Below are positions 4,850 through 17,195 of a stretch of 64,000 bases of DNA, in pieces (the stretch's first letter is position 1; each line of letters begins with the position of its first letter). The notes beneath the pieces are model-generated. The model was not told the DNA's origin. It was given only the letters and a program-made list of their open reading frames with translations, and did not search any database. Position numbers and translations under genes: made by a program. The DNA comes from Geodermatophilus pulveris (GTDB lineage Bacteria > Actinomycetota > Actinomycetes > Mycobacteriales > Geodermatophilaceae): the NCBI RefSeq assembly GCF_900188375.1, contig NZ_FZOO01000008.1, forward strand, positions 1-64,000, in the 5' to 3' direction.

Positions 4850-6424
4850 GTGGACGTCTTCAACGATCTCGGCCAGGGCATCCTGGCCCTGCTCACCGTG
4901 CAGAACATCCTGCTGCTCGGGGCCGGCGTGCTCATGGGCATGGTCGTCGGCGTCATGCCCGGGCTCGGGCCGTCGGCGGGCCTGGCCATCCTGCTGCCGA
5001 TCACCTTCACCCTGGACCCGACCGGTGCGGTCGTCATGCTCGCCGCCGTCTACTACGGCGCCATGTACGGCGGCACGATCACCTCGGTGCTGATCAACAC
5101 GCCGGGTGAGTCCGCGACGGTGGCCAGCACGTTCGACGGCTACCCGCTGGCCAAGCAGGGCCGCGCGGGGCCGGCGCTGGTCATGGCGGCGATCGCCTCC
5201 TTCGTCGCCGGCACCATCGGCGCGGTCCTCATCAGCGTCGCCGCACCGGCGACGGCCGCGGTGGCGGCCACCTTCGGCCCGCCCGAGCTGTTCCTCGTGG
5301 TGATCCTGGGGCTGCTCACCCTCATCGTCATCGTCGGCAAGAACCGGCTGCTCGGGGCGCTGTCGGCGCTGCTCGGCTTCGGGCTGGCCACCGTCGGCAT
5401 CGACATCGGCGGCGGCCAGCAGCGCTACACCTTCGGCTCCACCGAGCTGATCAACGGCATCGACTTCATCCCGGTCGCCATCGGCCTGTTCGGCGTCGGC
5501 GAGGTGCTGCACACGCTGTGGCGCGGCGGCCACCTGGAGCGGCTCGGCTACTTCAGCGTCAGCTCCCGGTCGAAGGGCTTCTGGCCGACCCGGGCCGACC
5601 GCCGGGAGTCCCGCGGCCCCATGCTGCGCGGCTCGTTCCTCGGCTTCCTCGTCGGCACCACGCCCGGCGCCGGCGCCACCGTCGCCTCGCTGATGTCCTA
5701 CAACCTGGAGAAGTCGATCTCCAAGACGCCGGAGAGGTTCGGCAAGGGCGCCATGCCCGGGCTGGTCGGCCCCGAGGCGGCCAACAACGCCGCGTCGGCC
5801 GGCGCCATGGTGCCGCTGCTGACCCTCGGCATCCCCGGTTCGGCGGCCACCGCCGTGCTCATCGGCGGGTTCCTCATGTGGGGCCTGCAGCCCGGGCCGC
5901 TGCTCATGCAGCAGAACCCGGAGTTCGCCTGGGGCCTGATCGCCAGCATGTACCTCGGCAACGTGATGCTGCTGCTGGTCAACGTCTTCTGCATCCCGGC
6001 GTTCGCCAGCATCGCCCGGGTGCCGTTCCGGGTGCTCGCGCCGATCATCCTGGTGGTCTGCGTGGTCGGGACCTTCACCGTCAACGGCAGCGTCATCGAG
6101 GTCGGCATCATGCTGGCCTGCGGCGTCCTCGGCTTCTTCATGCGCCGCTACGGGATGTCCCCGGCGGCACTGGTCATCGCGCTCGTCCTCGGCCCGCTCG
6201 GTGAGGAGACGCTGCGCCAGACGCTGCTCATCTCCGACGGCAGCTGGGTGGTCTTCCTGCAGCGCCCGACGTCGGTGGTGCTGCTCGCGGTGATGGCCGT
6301 CCTGGTCGCCGTCCCGCTGCTCGTGCCGCACCTGCGCCGCCTGGTGCGGGCCCGGCTGGAGGCCGTCGGCCGCCAGCGCCGGGAGGCCGAGCAGCCCGAG
6401 CCGCGCGACCGGACGACGGTGTGA
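4850..6424 (+). CDS. tctA: TctA-family large membrane subunit of tripartite tricarboxylate transporter
   Basis: 524 residues, a polytopic membrane protein of about twelve helices. Conserved blocks include GVMPGLGPSAGLAILLP near residues 39-55, YYGAMYGGTITSVLINTPGE, and the repeat-related GTTPGAGATVASLMSYNLEK plus EAANNAASAGAMVPLLTLGIPG, which are the paired PG-loop signatures of the family. It forms the translocation channel, taking substrate from TctC. GTG start 16 bases after the tctB stop; the last codons overlap the next gene (6421). Complete and of normal length. Confidence 0.95.
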   Translation: MDVFNDLGQGILALLTVQNILLLGAGVLMGMVVGVMPGLGPSAGLAILLPITFTLDPTGAVVMLAAVYYGAMYGGTITSVLINTPGESATVASTFDGYPLAKQGRAGPALVMAAIASFVAGTIGAVLISVAAPATAAVAATFGPPELFLVVILGLLTLIVIVGKNRLLGALSALLGFGLATVGIDIGGGQQRYTFGSTELINGIDFIPVAIGLFGVGEVLHTLWRGGHLERLGYFSVSSRSKGFWPTRADRRESRGPMLRGSFLGFLVGTTPGAGATVASLMSYNLEKSISKTPERFGKGAMPGLVGPEAANNAASAGAMVPLLTLGIPGSAATAVLIGGFLMWGLQPGPLLMQQNPEFAWGLIASMYLGNVMLLLVNVFCIPAFASIARVPFRVLAPIILVVCVVGTFTVNGSVIEVGIMLACGVLGFFMRRYGMSPAALVIALVLGPLGEETLRQTLLISDGSWVVFLQRPTSVVLLAVMAVLVAVPLLVPHLRRLVRARLEAVGRQRREAEQPEPRDRTTV

Positions 6425-6921
6425 ACCTGGCCTCGCTGGCGACCACCCTGGTCGCCGCGCTGGCCGGCGCGGCGCTGGCCACCCTGCTCAAGCTGCCGGC
6501 CGCCCCGCTGCTCGGCGCCATGGTGGGCGTGGCCGTCGTCAAGCTGAGCAGCTCGCTCACCTTCGAGATCCCCCGGGTGGGGCAGTGGGTCGTCTACTGC
6601 GCGGTCGGGTGGCTGCTCGGCCAGACGGTGACCCGCGGCGCGCTGTCCGCCCTCAAGGACCACGCGGTGGCCGTCGTCGTCTGCGTGGTGCTGTTCCTCG
6701 TCTTCGGCCTGGCCCTGGCGTGGGGGCTGTGGCGGTTCACCGGCCTGGACGTGCACACCGCGCTGCTGGCCACCGCGCCCGGCGGCATCGCCCAGATGGG
6801 CGCGCTGTCGGCCGCCGCCAACGTCAACGCCCCGCTGGTGCTGTGCGTGCACGTGCTCCGGATCACCTCGGTCATCGTGCTGATGAGCCTGGGCCTGAAG
6901 CTGTTGGGCGAGCGGCCGTGA
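6421..6921 (+). CDS. AbrB-like (pfam05145-type) membrane protein
   Basis: 166 residues, nearly all hydrophobic, with five or six helices. The pattern KLPAAPLLGAMVGVAVVKL near the N-terminus and LLATAPGGIAQMGALSAAAN later matches the half-length AbrB duplication-domain proteins often found beside Tct transporters. Its GTG start overlaps the tctA stop, so it is co-translated with the transporter. Function is not established; a regulatory or transport-related role is inferred only from genomic association. No relation to the DNA-binding AbrB of Bacillus. Confidence 0.75.
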   Translation: MNLASLATTLVAALAGAALATLLKLPAAPLLGAMVGVAVVKLSSSLTFEIPRVGQWVVYCAVGWLLGQTVTRGALSALKDHAVAVVVCVVLFLVFGLALAWGLWRFTGLDVHTALLATAPGGIAQMGALSAAANVNAPLVLCVHVLRITSVIVLMSLGLKLLGERP

Positions 6922-8547: not shown

Positions 8548-10692
8548 ATGACCGCGCCTCCGCCGGGCCGGCAGGACGACGGGCTGGGCGCGCTGCTGCG
8601 GCCGCGGGGGATCGCGCTGCTCGGCATCTCCGGCCGGCCGGAGAACCTGATGTCCCGGCCGCTGCGCTACCTCGTCGAGCACGGCTACGCCGGCGGCCTC
8701 TACCCGGTCAACCCCAACTACGCCGAGCTCGTCGGGCAGCCGTGCTACCCGGCGCTGGCCGACGTGCCGGGCCCGGTCGACCTGGTGCTCGTCCTGGTCG
8801 CCGCCGAGCGGGTGGAGGACGCCGTCCGGCAGGCCGCCGCGGCCGGCGCGAGGGCGGCGGTCGTCTACGCCTCCGGGTTCGCCGAGGTCGGCCCCGCGGG
8901 GGTGGCGCTGCAGCAGCGGCTGGCCGCGGTGGCCCGGGAGACCGGCGTCCGGGTGGTCGGGCCGAACTGCCAGGGCTTCCTCTACGCGCCCACCGGGGTG
9001 GTGGCCACCTTCACCGCCGCCGCCGACCGGCCGCTGGCCTCCGGCAGCGGGGTGGCCTACGTCGGGCAGAGCGGCGCGGTCGGCGGCTCGGTGCTCGACC
9101 TGGCCACCGACATGGGCCTGGGCCTGGAGGCGTGGTTCAGCACCGGCAACCAGGCCGACCTGGACCTCACCGAGGTCTCCGCGCACCTGCTGGCCGACCC
9201 GGCGGTGCGGGTGCTCATGCTCTACGTCGAGGCCACCGGCGACGGCGCCGCGTACGCCGAGCTGGCCCGCCGCGCGCAGGCGGCCGGCAAGCGCCTGGTG
9301 GTGCTGCGTTCGGGCCGGTCGTCGGCCGGCCGCCGGGCGGTGGCCAGCCACACCGGCTCGATGCTCGGCGACGACGTCGCCTTCGTGCTCACCTCGCAGC
9401 GGTACGGCGTCACCCTGGTCGACGACGTCGACGAGCTGCTCGCCGTCGCCGCGGTGCTGGCCGCCGGGCGGCCGGCGGAGGGACCGCGGGTCGCCGTCGT
9501 CACCACCTCCGGCGGGGCCGGCAGCCTGGCCGCCGATCAGTGCGCGGACGTCGGCCTGCAGCTGCCCGAGCTGTCCGCGGCCACCCAGGCCCGGCTGCGC
9601 CCGCTCATCCCACCCTTCGGCGCGCTGGCCAACCCGGTCGACGTCACTGCCCAGCTGTTCAACCGCGGTGCACAGGCCTTCGGCGACGTCTGCCGGATCA
9701 TCGCCGAGGACGACGCGGTCGACGTCGTCGCCGTCCTGGTGACCATGGTCGTCGGCGAGGCCGGTGCCCGGCTGGCCGAGGATCTCGTCGCCACCGCGGC
9801 CGCGCTGCCCTGCCCGCTGCTGGTCGGCTGGATCGCCGGGCAGGAGCTCACGGTGGAGGGACGGCGGGTGTTCCGCGAGGCCGGCGTCCCGGTGTTCGGC
9901 TCGGTCGGCGACCTGGCCCGCGTCGCTGCCCGGCTGGCCCCGCCCCGGTCGCCGGGCACCCCGCCGCCGCTGCCGCCGGTCCCGGAGCTCCCGGCTGCCG
10001 CGGTGCGCGCGCTGCTCGACGCCCCCGTGGTGGACGGCGCGGCGCTGCTGCGGGCGGTCGGCATCGCCCAGCCGTCCTCGGTCCTGGTCACCGACCCGGA
10101 GGCGGCGCGCGACGCGGTCGCCGCGCTGCCCGGCCCGGGCGTGCTCAAGCTGGCCGCCGCGGACCTGGCGCACAAGAGCGAGGTCGGCGGCGTGCGGGTG
10201 GGCGTCGGTCCGGACGCCGCGGCCGCCGTGTTCACCGAGCTGCTCGCCGCCGCGCGGCGGCACCACGTGCCCGGCGTCGAGGGGGTGCTCGTGCAGGGGC
10301 TCGTCCCGCCGGGCACCGAGCTGGTCCTCGCCGTCACCGCGGGGCGCGACGGCTTCCCGCCGGTGGTCACGGTGGGCCTGGGCGGGGTCACCACCGAGCT
10401 GTACCGCGACCTCGCCTCCGCGCTGGCGCCGGTGAGCCCCGAGGAGGCGTGGGCGATGCTGCGCCGGCTGCGGGCCTGGCCGCTGCTGGCGGGGTTCCGC
10501 GGCGCCGAGCCCGCCGACGTGCCGGCCGCGGTGGACGCCGTGGTCCGGCTGTCGCAGGCGGCGCTGGCCGCCGGCGACCGGCTGGCCGAGTTCGAGGTCA
10601 ACCCGCTGATCGTCGGCCCCCGCGGGCGCGGCGCCACCGCCGTCGACGTCCTCGTCCGCACCACCGGCTCCCGCGAGCCGGTGGGCGAGTAG
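8548..10692 (+). CDS. Acyl-CoA synthetase (NDP-forming), acetate-CoA ligase-like
   Basis: 714 residues with the fused alpha-beta architecture of ADP-forming acyl-CoA ligases: CoA-binding Rossmann domain (GIALLGISGRPENLMSRPLRYL; VGPNCQGFLY), succinyl-CoA-synthetase-like flavodoxin domains (AYVGQSGAVGGSVLDLA; the catalytic phospho-histidine context VASHTGSMLGDD near residue 267), and a C-terminal ATP-grasp lobe (VLKLAAADLAHKSEVGGVRVGV; LAEFEVNPLIVGP). It interconverts an acid, CoA and ATP with acyl-CoA, ADP and phosphate. First gene of the operon reaching 17195; the ATG follows GAGGAGG. It ends in TAG, one of five ordinary genes here to do so, which matters because TAG appears recoded further on. 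Confidence 0.92.
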   Translation: MTAPPPGRQDDGLGALLRPRGIALLGISGRPENLMSRPLRYLVEHGYAGGLYPVNPNYAELVGQPCYPALADVPGPVDLVLVLVAAERVEDAVRQAAAAGARAAVVYASGFAEVGPAGVALQQRLAAVARETGVRVVGPNCQGFLYAPTGVVATFTAAADRPLASGSGVAYVGQSGAVGGSVLDLATDMGLGLEAWFSTGNQADLDLTEVSAHLLADPAVRVLMLYVEATGDGAAYAELARRAQAAGKRLVVLRSGRSSAGRRAVASHTGSMLGDDVAFVLTSQRYGVTLVDDVDELLAVAAVLAAGRPAEGPRVAVVTTSGGAGSLAADQCADVGLQLPELSAATQARLRPLIPPFGALANPVDVTAQLFNRGAQAFGDVCRIIAEDDAVDVVAVLVTMVVGEAGARLAEDLVATAAALPCPLLVGWIAGQELTVEGRRVFREAGVPVFGSVGDLARVAARLAPPRSPGTPPPLPPVPELPAAAVRALLDAPVVDGAALLRAVGIAQPSSVLVTDPEAARDAVAALPGPGVLKLAAADLAHKSEVGGVRVGVGPDAAAAVFTELLAAARRHHVPGVEGVLVQGLVPPGTELVLAVTAGRDGFPPVVTVGLGGVTTELYRDLASALAPVSPEEAWAMLRRLRAWPLLAGFRGAEPADVPAAVDAVVRLSQAALAAGDRLAEFEVNPLIVGPRGRGATAVDVLVRTTGSREPVGE

Positions 10693-10734: not shown

Positions 10735-11472
10735 GTGGGACAGATCCAGTTGGAGCGGCACGGCGGCATCGCCGTGCTCACCGTCGACAACCCCGACGTG
10801 AAGAACGGCCTCACCCCCGAGATGGGGCTGCAGCTGTCGGAGCTGTGCGACGAGGTGGACGCCGACCCGGCCATCGGCGCCGCCGTCGTCCGCGGCGCGG
10901 GCGGCACCTTCTGCTCCGGCGCGGACCGGCGGCGCTGGACGGCCGGCGCCGACCAGGCCGAGGACCGGACGTACAAGGAGCTCGGCGCGGTCTACACCGC
11001 CTTCCGCCGGGTGGGCACCCTGCAGGTGCCCACCATCGCCGCGGTGCGCGGCGCCGCGGTCGGCGCGGGCATCAACCTCGCCCTGTCCACCGACCTGCGC
11101 GTCGTCTCGCAGACCGCCCGGCTGCTGGCCGGCTTCCTGCGCATCGGCCTGCACCCCGGCGGCGGCTACTTCACCATCAGCAGCCGGACGGCGGGCCGCG
11201 AGGCCACCGCCGCGATGGGCCTGTTCAGCGAGGAGGTCGACGGCGTGCGCGCCGCCGAGATCGGCCTGGCGTGGAAGGCGGTCCCCGACGAGCAGGTCGA
11301 GGACCTCGCGATGGAGCTGGCCGGCCGCGCGGCGAAGGACCCGGAGCTGGCCCGCGAGGCGGCCCGCTCGTTCCGCACCGAGGCCGGTCCGCCCGGGATC
11401 GGCTGGGAGGCCGCGCTGCACTTCGAGCGGGCCACCCAGATGTGGTCCCAGCGGCGGCGCGAGACCGCCTGA
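10735..11472 (+). CDS. Enoyl-CoA hydratase/isomerase family protein
   Basis: 245 residues, crotonase superfamily. VVRGAGGTFCSGADRRRW provides the first oxyanion-hole segment and AAVRGAAVGAGINLALSTDLRVVS the second; the usual catalytic-glutamate region reads IGLHPGGGYFTISSRTAGRE, without an obvious glutamate at the classical positions, so it may be an isomerase or a variant rather than a standard hydratase. GTG start after AGAGAGGCAGG. Sits between the acyl-CoA ligase and the first dehydrogenase, consistent with a beta-oxidation-like route for the operon's substrate. Confidence 0.88.
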   Translation: MGQIQLERHGGIAVLTVDNPDVKNGLTPEMGLQLSELCDEVDADPAIGAAVVRGAGGTFCSGADRRRWTAGADQAEDRTYKELGAVYTAFRRVGTLQVPTIAAVRGAAVGAGINLALSTDLRVVSQTARLLAGFLRIGLHPGGGYFTISSRTAGREATAAMGLFSEEVDGVRAAEIGLAWKAVPDEQVEDLAMELAGRAAKDPELAREAARSFRTEAGPPGIGWEAALHFERATQMWSQRRRETA

Positions 11473-11545: not shown

Positions 11546-12679
11546 ATGCAGTTCGCCCCCACCGCGCTCACCCCGGACGAGGAGGCCCTGCGCGCCGAGG
11601 TGCGCGAGTTCCTCGCCGCCGAGCTGCCCGCCGGGCACCGCCCCGCACTGGGCTTCGCCGGCCGGCACGACCCGGAGTTCTCCCGCACGCTGGCCAAGCG
11701 CGGCTGGGTCGGCATGGCCATCCCGCCGCGCTACGGCGGGCACGGGCGCAGCGCCGTCGACCGGTTCCTCGTCGCCGAGGAGCTGCTCGCCGCCGGCGCA
11801 CCGATCGGCGCGCACTTCGTCGCCGACCGGCAGACCGCCCCGGCGCTGCTGCACTTCGGCACCGAGGAGCAGCGGCAGCGGTTCCTGCCCGGCATCGCCG
11901 CCGGCGAGCTCTACTTCTCCCTGGGCATGAGCGAGCCCGACTCCGGCTCCGACCTGGCCTCGGTGCGCACCCGCGCCACCCGGGCCGACGGCGGCTGGAC
12001 GGTCACCGGCACCAAGGTGTGGACCAGCGAGGCCCACCGCAACCACTTCTTCGCCGTCCTGTGCCGGACCTCGCCGATGGAGGAGGGCCGCAAGCACGCC
12101 GGGCTGTCCCAGCTGGTCGTCGACCTGGCCGCGCCGGGCGTGCGGATCTCGCCCATCCCGTACCTGGACGGCAGCCACCACTTCAACGAGGTGGCCCTGG
12201 AGGACGTGTTCGTGCCCGACGACATGGTGCTCGGCGAGCTGGGCAGCGGCTGGGCCCAGGTGACCAGCGAGCTGGCCTACGAGCGCGCCGGACCCGACCG
12301 CTGGCTGTCCACCTTCCCGGTGCTGCGCGCCTGGCTGCGCGAGCGCCCGTCGGTGACCGACGCCGACGCCGCCGTGCTCGGCCGGCTGGCCGCCCGCGCC
12401 CGGGCGATCCGGCACCTGTCGCTGTCGGTGGCCCGTGCGCTGGACCGCGGGCAGGCGCCGGTCGTGGAGGCGGCGCTGGTCAAGGAGGTCGGCACCCGCT
12501 TCGAGCAGGACCTCGTCGCCGCGCTCCGGGACGCCGCCGAGACCGAGCTGGACCAGGGCGCGGACTCACTGTTCGCGTCGCTGCTCGCCGAGGCGGTCAT
12601 CACCTCGCCGTCCTACACGCTGCGCGGCGGGACCAACGAGGTGCTGCGCTCGGTCGCCGCGAAGGCGCTGACGGCATGA
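11546..12679 (+). CDS. Acyl-CoA dehydrogenase family protein (first of two)
   Basis: 377 residues in the standard order: N-terminal helical domain (TPDEEALRAEVREFLAAELP), beta domain with FAD/substrate motif YFSLGMSEPDSGSDLASVRT, and C-terminal helical domain ending in YTLRGGTNEVLRS, which packs on the flavin. It would oxidise an acyl-CoA at alpha-beta with electrons passing to ETF. ATG preceded by CTGGAGGGA. The stop overlaps the next dehydrogenase start (ATGA). Paired dehydrogenase subunits that overlap like this are often heteromeric (as in steroid side-chain FadE complexes), so the two may work together; that is inference. Confidence 0.92.
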   Translation: MQFAPTALTPDEEALRAEVREFLAAELPAGHRPALGFAGRHDPEFSRTLAKRGWVGMAIPPRYGGHGRSAVDRFLVAEELLAAGAPIGAHFVADRQTAPALLHFGTEEQRQRFLPGIAAGELYFSLGMSEPDSGSDLASVRTRATRADGGWTVTGTKVWTSEAHRNHFFAVLCRTSPMEEGRKHAGLSQLVVDLAAPGVRISPIPYLDGSHHFNEVALEDVFVPDDMVLGELGSGWAQVTSELAYERAGPDRWLSTFPVLRAWLRERPSVTDADAAVLGRLAARARAIRHLSLSVARALDRGQAPVVEAALVKEVGTRFEQDLVAALRDAAETELDQGADSLFASLLAEAVITSPSYTLRGGTNEVLRSVAAKALTA

Positions 12680-13737
12680 GCGGGGACCGGGAGATGCTGA
12701 CCGAGGTCGCCACCGGCCTGTTCGGGGACCTGTGCACCCCGGAGGACGTCGTCGCCGCGGAGGCCACCGGCTGGAGCGAGCGGCTCTGGACGGCGCTGGC
12801 CGAGGGCGGCTTCCCGCTGGTGTCGGTGCCCGAGGAGGCCGGCGGCTCCGGCGGGGACGTCGCCGACGCCTGCGCGCTGCTCGCCGTCGCCGGCCGGTTC
12901 GCCGCCCCCGTGCCGCTGGCCGAGACCGGGCTGCTCGGCGGCTGGGCGCTGGCCGCGGCCGGCCTGCCGCTGCCCGCCGGGCCGGTGTCGGTGGCGGTCG
13001 GCGCGCCCGGGGACACCGTCGCGCTGCGCGGCGGGCGGTTCTCCGCGCGGCTGTCCCGGGTGCCGTGGGGCGGGCGCAGCGAGCGGGTGGTGGCGTTCGC
13101 CGACGACGGCGGGCGGCGGGTCGTCGTCTCCGCGCCCACCGCCGCCGCGACGGTGACGACCGGGCGGAACCTGGCCGCCGAGCCGCGCGACACCCTGGTG
13201 TGGGACGACGTCGAGCTGCCCGCCGACGCGGTGGGCCCCGCGCCGGACGGCGTGGACCCCGGCGCGCTGCGGCTGCGCGGCGCGCTGGCCCGGGCCGCCC
13301 TGATCGCCGGCGCGCTGGCGCGGGTCACCGAGCTGACCGTGCGCTACACCGGCGAGCGGCAGCAGTTCGGCCGGCCGATCGCCCGCTTCCAGGCGGTGCA
13401 GGCGCACCTGGTCACCATCGCCGAGGAGGCCGAGCTGGCCGGCCTCGCCGTCCGGGTGGCCGCGCTGAACGCCCGCCCGGACCCGGCCTTCGACGACGTC
13501 GCGGCGGCCAAGGCGGCGGCCGGCGAGGCGGCGACGGTCGCGGCGCGGGCCACCCACCAGGCGCACGGCGCGATCGGCATGACCAAGGAGTACGAGCTCG
13601 GCCAACTCACCCGCCGGCTGTGGTCGTGGCGCGACGAGTTCGGCAGCGAGCGGCACTGGAGCCGGGAGCTCGGCCGCCGGCTGGCCGCCGAGGGCGCCGA
13701 TGCGCTGTGGCCCAGCATCGCGCGGGGGCCGGCGTGA
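12676..13737 (+). CDS. Acyl-CoA dehydrogenase family protein (second of two)
   Basis: 353 residues, translationally coupled to the previous dehydrogenase by ATGA overlap. Contains the C-terminal-domain motifs RYTGERQQFGRPIARFQAVQAHL and ATHQAHGAIGMTKEYELGQL typical of acyl-CoA dehydrogenases, but the N-terminal and middle domains are shorter and the SEPDxGSD-type segment seen in its partner is missing, replaced by a weakly conserved alanine/glycine-rich stretch. That resembles the divergent subunit of heteromeric dehydrogenases. It overlaps the following redox fusion gene (GTGA). Confidence 0.88.
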   Translation: MSGDREMLTEVATGLFGDLCTPEDVVAAEATGWSERLWTALAEGGFPLVSVPEEAGGSGGDVADACALLAVAGRFAAPVPLAETGLLGGWALAAAGLPLPAGPVSVAVGAPGDTVALRGGRFSARLSRVPWGGRSERVVAFADDGGRRVVVSAPTAAATVTTGRNLAAEPRDTLVWDDVELPADAVGPAPDGVDPGALRLRGALARAALIAGALARVTELTVRYTGERQQFGRPIARFQAVQAHLVTIAEEAELAGLAVRVAALNARPDPAFDDVAAAKAAAGEAATVAARATHQAHGAIGMTKEYELGQLTRRLWSWRDEFGSERHWSRELGRRLAAEGADALWPSIARGPA

Positions 13738-15146
13738 GCGCCGACTGGGACGTCGCCGTCGTCGGCGCCGGCGCCGCCGGGCTGACCGCGGCGCGGGTCG
13801 CGGCCGGGGCGGGGCTGCGGGTGGTGGCCTACGAGCGGCTGGGCCCGGGCGGGCAGCTGGTCAACCTCACGACGCTGCACGACCACCCCGGCGGCACCGG
13901 CCCGGAGCTGACCGCGGCGCTGACCGCCGCGGCCGAGGGCGCCGGGGTGCGCCTCGCGTACGCCGAGGTGACCCGCGTGCAGCCGGGCCCGCCGACGCGG
14001 CTGACGACGTCGGAGGGCGAGGTGACCGCCCGGGTCGTCGTGGTCGCGGCCGGGCTCTCGCCCGGGCGGCTGGGGCTGCCCGGGGAGGCGGAGCTGGCCG
14101 GGCGCGGGGTGTCCACCTGCGCCGCCTGCGACGGGCCGCTGTTCCGCGGCCGCCCGGTGGCCGTCGTCGGCGACGACGAGTGGACGGCGACCGAGGCCCT
14201 CGAGCTGGCCGGTCACGCCACCGCGGTGACCGTGCTGGTGCCCGGGGAGCCGCGCTGGTCGGCGGCGCGGGACCGGCTGCTGGCGGCGCAGCAGCGGGTC
14301 GAGGTGCTGACCGGCGCGGCGGTGACCGCACTGCGCGGGGAGGGCGCGCTGTCCGGCGTCGCCGTCCGCACCGCCGACGGGGAGCGGGAGCTGGCCGTCG
14401 CCGGGGTGTTCCCGTTCGTCGGCCGGCGCGGTCCCGGGGGCCTGGTCGAGGGGCTGGCCGCCGACGCCGACGGCCGGCTGGTGCCGTCGGCCGGCGTGCT
14501 CGTCGCCGGGGACGCGCGGGCCGGCGCGGACCAGACGCTGGCCGCCGCGGAGGCCGACGGGCGCGCCGCAGGGGAGGCCGCGGTCGCGGCGCTCGCCGCC
14601 GGTGCCGGGTCGCTGCGGGTCGTCGACCCGACGCACGGCGTGCGGCCCGAGCCGGCCGGTGCCGGCGCCGTTGCCGCCAGCACCGCGGCCTGGACCGACG
14701 TGGCGCTGTTCACCAACTCCAAGCCGAACGCCACCGAGCTGCTGCGCGGCCTGGGCGGGCGGCTGCAGGCGCACTGGGCGCTGCCCGAGCTGGGCTTCGC
14801 GGCCAAGGAGAGCGCCTCGGTGGCGGCCGATCCCGACCAGATCGACTGGCTGGCCCAGCGCTTCAAGATGGTGCTGGTGGCGGTCGGCGACTAGGGCTCC
14901 TGCTCGTCGTGGAGTCTCCACGACTCGGTGGAACTGGAGCGGCGCGGCGTCGTGGCACCCCTGGTGGTGACCGAGACGTTCCTGCCGCTGGTGCAGGCGC
15001 AGGCCCGCGCGCGGCGGGTGGACCCGCGGCTGCTCGTCGTCCCGCACCCGGTCGGCGGCCTGACCCCGGACGAGCTGGCCGGCCGGGTCGAGGGCGCGGC
15101 CGGCGACCTGCTGCGGATGGCCGACGAGGCGAGGGGGCGGCCGTGA
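13734..15146 (+). CDS. Thioredoxin-reductase-like flavoprotein fused to a UGSC-family selenoprotein domain; Sec encoded by TAG
   Basis: Read as one 470-residue protein if TAG at 14892-14894 is decoded. Residues 1-295 are a pyridine-nucleotide-disulphide oxidoreductase: FAD motif GAGAAG (11-16), redox pair C129-AA-C132 followed by DG as in thioredoxin reductase, and a C-terminal FAD segment AGDARAGADQTLAAAEADGR. Residues about 296-470 match UGSC-family (seleno)proteins: LFTNSKPNATELLRGL, VAVGD-X-GSC at 382-390, then VELERRGVVAPLVVTE and LLVVPHPVGG. X387 is the TAG; family members have selenocysteine or cysteine there. Stopping at TAG would remove the active Cys and the last 83 residues, and no ribosome site precedes the next possible start (GTG 14928). 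GTG start overlaps the preceding stop and the last codon overlaps the next start, so the operon continues. Most likely a redox enzyme passing NAD(P)H electrons through CxxC to a UxxC centre. Substrate unknown. Confidence 0.85.
14892..14894 (+). other. In-frame TAG, probable selenocysteine codon
   Basis: TAG lies exactly at the U of the conserved U-G-S-C motif (…VGD-TAG-GGC-TCC-TGC). The frame continues for 83 further sense codons that keep the family's conserved residues and ends in TGA at 15144-15146, overlapping the next gene. UAG-directed selenocysteine incorporation, with a tRNA-Sec carrying a CUA anticodon, has been reported for Geodermatophilus and Blastococcus (Mukai et al. 2016). Ordinary genes in this window still end in TAG (10692, 17654, 30173, 36640, 41759), so recoding must depend on context. 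Confidence 0.8.
14906..14924 (+). promoter_or_regulatory. SECIS-like hairpin downstream of the TAG codon
   Basis: GTCGTGGA (14906-14913) pairs perfectly with TCCACGAC (14917-14924) around a three-base loop GTC. The stem begins 11 bases after TAG and the first loop base is a G, 19 bases after the codon. This agrees with bacterial SECIS elements, which lie inside the coding region just after the Sec codon and need a G at the start of a small apical loop for SelB binding. The hairpin codes for residues that vary in the family, consistent with selection on RNA structure. Confidence 0.7.
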
Positions 15147-16168
15147 CCGCGGTGCTGGACCTGCCCGGCGTGACCGAGGAGAGCTGGCAGGAGGAGGCGC
15201 ACCGCCGCGGCTGGGGCGACGGGCTGCCACTGGTGGCCCCGACCCCGGCCCGGGTCGAGGCGGCCCTGGCCGCGCTGGACGGCGTCGACCTGGAGCTGGG
15301 GCCGCTGCCGCCGTCCGGGCTGGTGCCCACCCGGGAGAGCCTCGCGGCCAACGCGGTCATGGCCGGCTGCCGCCCGGGCGACCTGCCGGTGGTGCTCGCC
15401 GCCGTCCGCGCGCTGCAGGCACCGGAGTACAACCTGCACGGCGTGCTGGCCACCACCCACCCGTGCGCGCCGATGGTGGTCGTCAACGGGCCGGTGCGCG
15501 GCGCGCTGGGCATCAACTCCGGCGGCAACTGCCTGGGCCAGGGCACCCGGGCCAACGCCGTCATCGGCCGGGCGGTGCAGCTGGTGACCACCCACGTCGG
15601 CGGCGCGCGGCCCGGCGTCCTGGACCGCGCCACCCAGGGCGGCCCGGCGAAGTACTCGTTCTGCTTCGGCGAGAACGAGGAGGACAGCCCGTTCCCGCCG
15701 TTCTCGGTGCGCCGCGGCTTCGCGCCGGGGGAGTCGGTGGTGACGGTCGCGGCCTGCGAGGGCCCGCACAACGTCAACGACCACGGGGCGACGACGGCCG
15801 AGGACCTGCTGCTCACCATCGCCGGGGTGATGGCCCAGCCCGGGTCGAACAACGTGTACGTGCGGGGCCCGCACTTCCTGGTGCTCGGCCCGGAGCACGC
15901 GGCCACGTTCGCCCGCGACGGCTGGACCGCCGAGGCGGTGCGCGACACGCTGTGGGAGCGGGCGCGGATCCCGGTGTCGCACGTGTCGGAGGCCAACCAG
16001 CGGCAGTTCGCCGACTGGGGGGTGCTGCCCGACGGCGACGCCTATCCGGTCAGCACCGGCCCGGAGATGCTGCACGTGCTGGTGGCCGGCGGAGCGGGGA
16101 AGCACTCGGCGTGGGTCCCGTCGTTCGGGGCCACCGCCGCGGTGTCGCGCGCCGTGCCCGGTGGCTGA
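15143..16168 (+). CDS. Conserved protein of unknown function, first of a paralogous pair beside the selenoprotein
   Basis: 341 residues, GTG start overlapping the selenoprotein stop. I do not recognise a named domain. It is clearly related to the next gene: both begin with a GWGDGLPLV- or GDGLPVVPPT-like segment, share NAVMAGCRPGDLPVVLAA / YAVLAGCPAAALPVVVAA, share a glycine-rich core (VVNGPVRGALGINSGGNCLG here), and both have AKY followed two residues later by cysteine (AKYSFCFGE). No signal peptide or membrane segment, so cytoplasmic. The two conserved cysteines and strict coupling to a UxxC flavoprotein suggest a redox partner or the substrate-binding component of the same enzyme; inferred from context only. 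Confidence 0.75.
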   Translation: MTAVLDLPGVTEESWQEEAHRRGWGDGLPLVAPTPARVEAALAALDGVDLELGPLPPSGLVPTRESLAANAVMAGCRPGDLPVVLAAVRALQAPEYNLHGVLATTHPCAPMVVVNGPVRGALGINSGGNCLGQGTRANAVIGRAVQLVTTHVGGARPGVLDRATQGGPAKYSFCFGENEEDSPFPPFSVRRGFAPGESVVTVAACEGPHNVNDHGATTAEDLLLTIAGVMAQPGSNNVYVRGPHFLVLGPEHAATFARDGWTAEAVRDTLWERARIPVSHVSEANQRQFADWGVLPDGDAYPVSTGPEMLHVLVAGGAGKHSAWVPSFGATAAVSRAVPGG

Positions 16169-17195
16169 CCTCCCGCTGGTCGCCGCCGACGCCGACCCCG
16201 CCGCGGTGACGGCCGACCTGCTGGCCGCGGGGCACGGCGACGGGCTGCCGGTGGTGCCGCCGACCGCCGCCCGCCTGGCGGCGGTGCTGGCCGGCGTCGC
16301 CGGCCCGGACGCCGTCCTGGGCCCGGTGCCGCCGCTGTTCGGCGAGCTCACCGTGCGCGGGGTGGCCTGGTACGCGGTGCTCGCGGGGTGCCCGGCCGCG
16401 GCGCTGCCGGTGGTCGTCGCGGCCTGCCGGGCGGCGCTGCGGCCGGAGGTCAACCTGCTCGGCCTGGCGACGACGACCGGGGCGCCGGCGGTCGGTGTGC
16501 TGGTGCACGGGCCGGTCGCCCGCCGGATCGGCATGACCTCGGGCGCGGGCGGGCTGGGCACCGGCACCGCGGTCAACGCCGCGGTCGGCCGCGCGGTGTC
16601 GCTGGCGCTGGCCGGGGCCGGTGGCGCGCGGGCCGGGCTGACCGACATGGCGACGATCGGCTCGCCCGCGAAGTACACGTGCTGCACGGCGGAGGCGGCC
16701 CGGCCGCTGCCCTCGCTGGCCCAGCGCCGCGGGCTCGGGGTGGACGTCGACGCGGTGACCGTGGCCGGGGTGGGCGGGCCGGTCGAGGTGCTGCCGGGGG
16801 AGGGGTACCGCGAGCCGCCGTCCGTGCTGGGCCCGGCCGCGGCGGCGATGGCGGGGCTGGCGCTCGCGGCCGGGGACCCGGGGCGGGCCGGCCGCGGCGA
16901 GCAGTTCCTGCTGCTGCCGCCGGAGCTGGCCGCGCTGTGCGGCGAGCAGGGCTGGGGCGCCGACCGGATCGCCGGGCACCTGTTCGCGGAGGGCAGCGCG
17001 CTGCTGCGGGCGTGGGCGCCGTCCGTGGCCTTCCGCGCGGACGTGCCGGCCTACGCGGCGGGCGACCTGCGGGTGGCCGGCTGCGCCGACGACGTCCGGG
17101 TCGTGGTCACCGGCGGGCCGGGGGTCAAGATGGCGCTGCTGCCCACCTGGAGCGGCGGCTCCCGCTCGGTGACCGCCGCCGTCCGCCCGCTGTGA
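16161..17195 (+). CDS. Conserved protein of unknown function, second of the paralogous pair
   Basis: 344 residues, GTG start inside the end of the preceding paralogue (8-base overlap), so the two are made together. Same organisation as its neighbour: GDGLPVVPPTAARL near residue 30, a conserved AGC (YAVLAGCPAAALP), VNLLGLATTTGAPAVGVLVHGPV, the glycine-rich SGAGGLGTGTAVNAAVGRAV, and AKYTCCTAE with two adjacent cysteines where the partner has one. The C-terminal GGPGVKMALLPTWSGGSR parallels GGAGKHSAWVPSFGAT in the partner. It is likely to form a heteromer with it. Last gene of the operon; function unknown. Confidence 0.75.
   Translation: MADLPLVAADADPAAVTADLLAAGHGDGLPVVPPTAARLAAVLAGVAGPDAVLGPVPPLFGELTVRGVAWYAVLAGCPAAALPVVVAACRAALRPEVNLLGLATTTGAPAVGVLVHGPVARRIGMTSGAGGLGTGTAVNAAVGRAVSLALAGAGGARAGLTDMATIGSPAKYTCCTAEAARPLPSLAQRRGLGVDVDAVTVAGVGGPVEVLPGEGYREPPSVLGPAAAAMAGLALAAGDPGRAGRGEQFLLLPPELAALCGEQGWGADRIAGHLFAEGSALLRAWAPSVAFRADVPAYAAGDLRVAGCADDVRVVVTGGPGVKMALLPTWSGGSRSVTAAVRPL

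Follow-up and report, generated by a model that had tools for sequence, protein, structure and literature searches.

Predicted decoding of UAG as selenocysteine in a thioredoxin reductase-like/UGSC fusion protein of Geodermatophilus pulveris and its relatives

Selenocysteine (Sec) is reportedly inserted at UAG in Geodermatophilus and Blastococcus, an observation credited to Mukai et al. in 2016. As recounted in the accessible portion of PMC5330540, that work reported Sec codons other than UGA, with formate dehydrogenase (FDH) and UGSC-motif selenoproteins in Geodermatophilaceae that carry a tRNA-Sec with a CUA anticodon; the same source adds AhpC. Regarding UGSC-containing selenoproteins, the available part of Zhang 2008 (PMC2398784) mentions a fusion of UGSC to an 'Unknown_1' domain, and a 2026 review (PMC13188914, in excerpt) lists the UGSC-containing protein among selenoproteins with largely uncharacterized functions. 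Here we analyze a gene of Geodermatophilus pulveris, located within the first 64,000 nucleotides of contig NZ_FZOO01000008.1 (the whole stretch analyzed, hereafter the window), in which a thioredoxin reductase (TrxR)-like flavoprotein continues through an in-frame TAG into a UGSC domain. An initial annotation, made from the letters of the window, had stated that UAG-Sec decoding was reported in Geodermatophilus and Blastococcus, and the accessible text of PMC5330540 agrees, UGSC-motif proteins included.

Reading frame 1 opens at GTG 13734 and meets its first in-frame stop at TAG 14892-14894, corresponding to residue 387, after which it goes on with GSCSSWSLHD, 83 residues in total, up to TGA 15144-15146. 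The single frame that the initial annotation had described, running from a flavoprotein through this TAG into a UGSC domain, is borne out by our reading and by a Pfam match (PF24696), as are its placement of TAG exactly at the U of UGSC with GSC next to it and the overlap with the following gene. The start of the fusion overlaps the stop (13735-13737) of the upstream acyl-coenzyme A (acyl-CoA) dehydrogenase-like gene 2, and its 3' end overlaps the GTG start (15143) of the downstream gene dn1. The elements of the fusion gene are as follows (FAD, flavin adenine dinucleotide; SECIS, selenocysteine insertion sequence):

13734..15146, plus strand: whole TrxR-like/UGSC fusion gene with TAG read through; 470 residues, own stop TGA at 15144-15146
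13746..14576, plus strand: TrxR-like flavoprotein part, residues 5-281, with the FAD motif GAGAAG retained and no GGGxSA or HRRxxxR
14118..14129, plus strand: CAAC disulfide motif, residues 129-132
14619..15116, plus strand: UGSC domain PF24696, residues 296-461; Pfam match spanning the TAG
14892..14894, plus strand: TAG, predicted Sec codon, residue 387, the U of UGSC
14906..14924, plus strand: predicted SECIS hairpin, with 7 pairs in the window gene and the loop AGUCU at 14913-14917

Across the TAG, PF24696 matches with 125.7 bits against a cut-off of 25, the UGSC motif being present. Residues 5-281 match the TrxR model TIGR01292 with 162.2 bits, under its cut-off of 343.45, and the N-terminal ~280 residues resemble TrxR models and solved structures. 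In a predicted structure (AlphaFold, with Cys in place of Sec), residue 387 lies between a strand (379-385) and a helix (388-403). Among the matches listed, the named homolog nearest to the query comes from Geodermatophilus sp. DSM 44513, with 90% identity across 82% of the query, and those homologs that have names among 120 of the 186 matched database entries are annotated as thioredoxin reductase, NAD(P)/FAD-dependent oxidoreductase or similar.

To assess the conservation of the TAG, 112 family (Geodermatophilaceae) genomes were searched for UGSC, which was found in 54 of them at 95 places: 72 with one TAG, 23 with no stop and none with TGA. From these, all 20 further places scoring in the same band as the window gene were retrieved; 18 are full-length fusions, and the remaining two, L084 and L094, lack both a fusion and an internal stop. 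Each of the 19 full-length fusions (window plus 18) contains exactly one internal stop, which is always TAG, falls in the same column and is followed by GSCSS. When 298 genomes of the same order, taken from a larger group, were surveyed, the 28 UGSC places outside the family comprised 15 with TGA, 13 with no stop and none with TAG; in both surveys a stop was counted wherever it fell inside the match rather than at the U column. The U column itself was read in GTDB species genomes scanned with dn1, where the best 80 of 340 loci were kept; 75 of these 80 have UGSC above 100 bits. The 76 places so obtained hold 14 TAG, 61 TGA and 1 TGC and nothing else, in keeping with the U or C that the initial annotation had anticipated at this column. 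All 14 TAG places are the 14 Geodermatophilaceae loci, which come from 14 genomes already represented among the 18 retrieved fusions and add names but no further cases; of the 61 loci outside the family, 60 have TGA and 1 has TGC.

The tRNA-Sec with a CUA anticodon that had been inferred from the window is present in the genome, with selD, selA and selB alongside. The tRNA-Sec model RF01852 gives one clear match (C15:57962-58053, 64.2 bits), whose anticodon is CTA by ARAGORN; a second match over cut-off (48.2 bits) is a tRNA-Ser TGA, and a UCA tRNA-Sec pattern has 0 matches in this genome. selD lies divergently just upstream of the CUA tRNA-Sec, with selA and selB following downstream in the same orientation as the tRNA, and all three score above the cut-offs of TIGR00474/00476/00475 (selA 413.8, selD 380.8 and selB 288.2 bits). 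Neither of the two genomic findings named beforehand as contradicting the proposal, a lack of selB or selC and a tRNA-Sec with UCA only, was encountered. TAG also occupies the U position in a further UGSC gene of this genome (C16:281723-282223) and occurs in frame in an FDH alpha gene (C18:82875-83615, context NQARI*HSATVPGLG), where we take it to mark the FDH Sec site.

Downstream of the codon, 55 UAG sites (19 fusions, 35 other UGSC genes and 1 FDH; 33 distinct) were compared. All 33/33 distinct sites can form a 5-bp stem in which positions +14 to +18, counted from the codon, pair with +24 to +28. Three of its five pairs vary on both sides between gene groups as compensatory changes, and pairing over six pairs is 0.949 in register versus 0.212-0.621 when shifted by 1 to 6, related sequences not being independent in these statistics and most of the covariation coming from the gene groups. 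The loop reads AGUGU at 31 of the 55 sites, AGUCU at 21, AGUUU at 2 and GGUCU at 1 (the FDH), and the A/G-GU loop is missing from those TGC-containing UGSC genes for which DNA was inspected. In TGA orthologs outside the family, the six inner pairs form in 42/42 distinct sequences, and when the Actinomycetospora sequence TGAGGCTCGTGCTCGTCGTGGAGTCTCCACGACTCG is set beside the TAG hairpin, most fusions carry the same letters. Across UGA and UAG orthologs the codon changes and the predicted SECIS hairpin is nearly unchanged.

Taken together, these results strongly support UAG-Sec decoding in the fusion, a kind of decoding already in print, and we consider it highly probable from the sequences that UAG is decoded as Sec and a full-length fused product is made. 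In the mechanism that we propose, the CUA tRNA-Sec would read UAG 14892-14894 as selenocysteine; SelB would bind the hairpin and bring Sec-tRNA to the UAG in competition with RF1, and whenever RF1 wins, a truncated 386-residue flavoprotein would be released.

The fusion is embedded in an operon that suggests a metabolic setting:

8548..10692, plus strand: ADP-forming acyl-CoA synthetase-like gene (acs), with CoA-binding, ligase and ATP-grasp domains
10735..11472, plus strand: enoyl-CoA hydratase/isomerase-like gene (ech)
11546..12679, plus strand: acyl-CoA dehydrogenase gene 1
12676..13737, plus strand: acyl-CoA dehydrogenase-like gene 2, overlapping the fusion start
15143..16168, plus strand: dn1, unnamed protein partner lying immediately after UGSC
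16161..17195, plus strand: dn2, paralog of dn1 (37% identity)

The order ech, fusion, dn1, dn2 is constant at all 18 family loci. acs is found in 17/18, dehydrogenase 1 in 17/18 (L075, a piece only) and dehydrogenase 2 in 16/18, the latter not being detected in L075 or L093. No Pfam family matched dn1 or dn2. dn1 follows closely behind UGSC, at a median of 291 nt from the U codon in the 64 loci measured; as these loci were selected by dn1, the figure describes UGSC next to dn1 and not the reverse. Among the best 80 of 340 dn1 loci, a TrxR-like domain in one open frame with UGSC occurs only at the 14 Geodermatophilaceae loci, and 23 of the 61 loci outside the family have a separate TrxR-like frame whose end lies no more than 700 nt before the U codon. 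At three Pseudonocardiaceae loci (L135, L136 and L138), a second UGSC(UGA) stands in a single frame with a dn-type domain (the dn part assigned by eye), and the UGSC part of L135:1728-3506 is confirmed by profile with 86.1 bits. This UGSC(UGA)-dn gene lies upstream of separate TrxR-like, UGSC and dn genes, and each of the three clusters is predicted to encode two selenoproteins. In Alicyclobacillus tolerans (L183), a second UGA-UGSC gene is located just past dn1 (6028-6570).

With respect to function, the FAD motif GxGxxG and CAxC are kept in 34/34 aligned TrxR-like sequences (19 fusions and 15 separate copies), and GDDxW is present in 24/34. GGGxSA and HRRxxxR, the motifs of TrxR for reduced nicotinamide adenine dinucleotide phosphate (NADPH) according to the consulted part of PMC6262447, are not kept in these 34 sequences (HRR, 0/34). 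Their loss, which the initial annotation had not mentioned, makes NADPH improbable as a donor, and the electron donor of the fusion is, judging from its motifs, probably not NADPH, with ferredoxin or another carrier being possible. A profile alignment (hhalign) of UGSC with GRDB places the Sec columns in register (probability 86.1, E 5e-6, 60 columns; one template and few sequences), and a tie between the UGSC domain and the GrdB Sec region is probable on this basis. The grd operon of Clostridioides difficile has its own Trx system for glycine reductase (PMC10880999, partial text), and by analogy the fusion looks like this pairing of Trx and glycine reductase brought into a single chain.

Accordingly modelled, FAD would reduce the CAAC disulfide, the reduced CAAC would then reduce a U387-C390 selenenylsulfide, and the U387 selenol would attack a small substrate held with dn1/dn2, as in the GrdB/PrdB selenoenzymes; the reaction would be a reduction within the breakdown pathway of an acid handled by the neighbouring acyl-CoA genes. 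We lean moderately towards an intramolecular electron chain from the TrxR-like flavoprotein to the Sec domain; GrdB-like reductive cleavage by the fusion is put forward tentatively, and its enzyme activity, substrate and reaction are what we infer. The fusion might, in a reading that concerns function only and has a limited but real chance of being correct, serve instead as a thiol/peroxide defence protein. In the part available, Zhang 2008 (PMC2398784) regards UGSC proteins as likely Trx-fold redox proteins, and U-x-x-C is a common redox motif, whereas the acyl-CoA genes in the operon at 18 loci, the dn partners, the single-frame UGSC-dn protein and the GRDB profile match speak for a GrdB-like catabolic reductase.

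Several results weigh against decoding of UAG as Sec in a GrdB-like fusion enzyme as set out here. By a rough composition proxy that may include the truncated fusion, 4 of 28 open reading frames seem to end at UAG; as UAG apparently terminates ordinary genes, read-through must be conditional. The UGSC domain of the fusion reaches 104.9 bits with NF041046, the UGSC (seleno)protein equivalog, under its curated cut-off of 125, and is inside the Pfam family PF24696 and outside this equivalog. The AlphaFold model has a predicted template-modelling score (pTM) of 0.46, and its domain contacts are not reliable. PF07355 (GRDB) gave no match to the UGSC domain of the window at E up to 10, nor to 30 UGSC sequences at E up to 1, HMMER filters dropping most weak matches, and dn1 showed no clear match to any known fold and no profile relation to GRDB. 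Finally, at 38 of the 61 loci from outside the family the 700 nt upstream hold no TrxR-like domain (some contigs being cut there), so that the electron-donor pairing is not universal.

If UAG were a true stop, only the 386-residue flavoprotein would be made, and the UGSC C-terminus would be a remnant or a reinitiated piece. This is very improbable. It is favoured by the 120 homologs listed (of 186), none of which extends beyond the U position (query coverage at most 82%), and by an in-frame GTG at codon 399 after the TAG; a start at this codon, however, would drop the UGSC motif. The conservation that the initial annotation had noted for the 83 residues after TAG holds across genomes, 49/83 being invariant in the 19 genomes versus 103/281 in the flavoprotein. 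Synonymous sites after the TAG are near-frozen as well: codon identity at invariant degenerate columns averages 0.957 over the 15 codons after TAG versus 0.644 in the flavoprotein, and the highest-scoring 12-codon window of all those scored is the one starting at residue 387. The TAG shared by 19/19 fusions together with the frozen codons downstream argues that it is not there by chance, and UGSC genes from outside the family have TGA at the orthologous position. With none of the 120 homologs going past Sec, the full enzyme has been hidden from view so far.

That UAG is read as some other residue, either pyrrolysine or one delivered by a near-cognate or suppressor tRNA, is slightly less probable still. 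ARAGORN labels the CUA tRNA as tRNA-Pyl, but this very tRNA scores as tRNA-Sec and lies beside selA, selB and selD, and the U column is restricted to TGA, TAG and TGC. A PylS profile reached 22.1 bits in this genome against a cut-off of 178.15 and was not found over it; in the control, 1 of 14 genomes passed the cut-off, presumably Methanosarcina acetivorans. As a side observation, the tRNA-Pyl label given to CUA tRNA-Sec means that family genomes may be misannotated as pyrrolysine users. A sequencing or assembly error, including a misread TGC or TGA as the initial annotation had considered, is next to inconceivable, as TAG recurs at this codon in the 18 other genomes and the same genome holds a second TAG-UGSC gene and the TAG-FDH.

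Within the family, the anticodon-arm pattern of a CUA tRNA-Sec occurs in 101/112 genomes, G. pulveris included. A UCA pattern occurs in 9, namely seven of genera g5-g7, G058 and G062. ARAGORN independently gives TCA in the seven g5-g7 genomes and on contig C17 of G058; G062 has the pattern match, yet ARAGORN finds no tRNA there. UCA tRNA-Sec is present in 7/9 genomes of these three genera (G066-G074), which places the anticodon change inside the Geodermatophilaceae. The same selenoprotein domain with a near-identical SECIS hairpin occurs with UGA in bacteria outside the family and with UAG in those within it, and genera lying to either side of the UCA-to-CUA change can be singled out. This allows the natural reassignment of a stop codon to be tested one gene at a time, including whether the tRNA, the codons or release-factor competition changed first.

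G058, a member of the same genus, has a CUA tRNA-Sec on contig C11, near its only selB over cut-off, as well as the UCA tRNA-Sec on C17 (L071, 1173-1263). The latter adjoins an AhpD-like gene (by eye, 1579-2154) that has the hairpin CGCAG-AGUUU-CUGCG as well as an in-frame TGA (CFY*MES); the GC content of this stretch is lower, and it contains frames resembling transposases (by eye). C17 is 69 kb long, and a 4-kb stretch further in matches genus DNA. G058 may insert Sec at UAG as well as at UGA; alternatively, the C17 end may be foreign or misjoined.

Overall, we tentatively propose, as an idea with less than an even chance, a new class of selenium-dependent reductase in aerobes, in which a non-NADPH flavoprotein and a GrdB-like Sec domain in one chain would cleave an acyl-type substrate reductively with two paralogous partners, and which the Geodermatophilaceae would have moved intact from UGA to UAG, SECIS kept, upon the change of the tRNA-Sec anticodon. 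The operon and the single-frame UGSC-dn protein provide a concrete biochemical hypothesis and partner proteins for the uncharacterised UGSC family. No TrxR-UGSC fusion was found in the literature consulted on UGSC or on selenocysteine in Blastococcus/Geodermatophilaceae, which was mostly open-access and partly in excerpt. The TrxR-like/UGSC fusion, its operon with two paralogous unnamed proteins, the probable tie to the GrdB Sec region and the loss of NADPH motifs are apparently new.

Compared with described systems, the locus shares with the UAG-Sec decoding of Geodermatophilus and Blastococcus the CUA tRNA-Sec, UAG at the Sec site, and the FDH and UGSC-motif proteins; relative to the account of Mukai 2016 in the accessible part of PMC5330540, what is added here comprises the TrxR-like fusion and its operon, UGA orthologs for comparison and a map of anticodons across the family, and overlap with Mukai 2016 itself is possible. 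With the UGSC-containing selenoprotein (PF24696; NF041046; Zhang 2008, PMC2398784, in part) it has in common the UGSC motif, the domain and Sec at the U, to which the fusion adds an N-terminal TrxR-like part and the UAG codon. GrdB/PrdB of glycine and D-proline reductase show similar 'ELERxGIP' and then 'PRxVxxPxPxG'-like letters after Sec, but PF07355 does not match the UGSC domain and dn1 is unrelated to GRDB by profile; the clostridial grd operon also encodes a Trx system (PMC10880999, partial text). Ferredoxin-dependent flavin TrxR (FFTR) likewise combines the TrxR fold, FAD motif and CxxC with absent NADPH motifs, as far as the consulted parts of PMC6262447 and PMC10880999 go. Unlike FFTR, the fusion is joined to a selenocysteine domain. 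In mammalian thioredoxin reductase, a flavoprotein disulfide feeds a C-terminal selenenylsulfide in the same chain. A like transfer from flavoprotein disulfide to C-terminal selenenylsulfide is predicted here, in a protein that differs from the mammalian enzyme in lacking the NADPH motifs, in carrying another C-terminal part and in using UAG rather than UGA.

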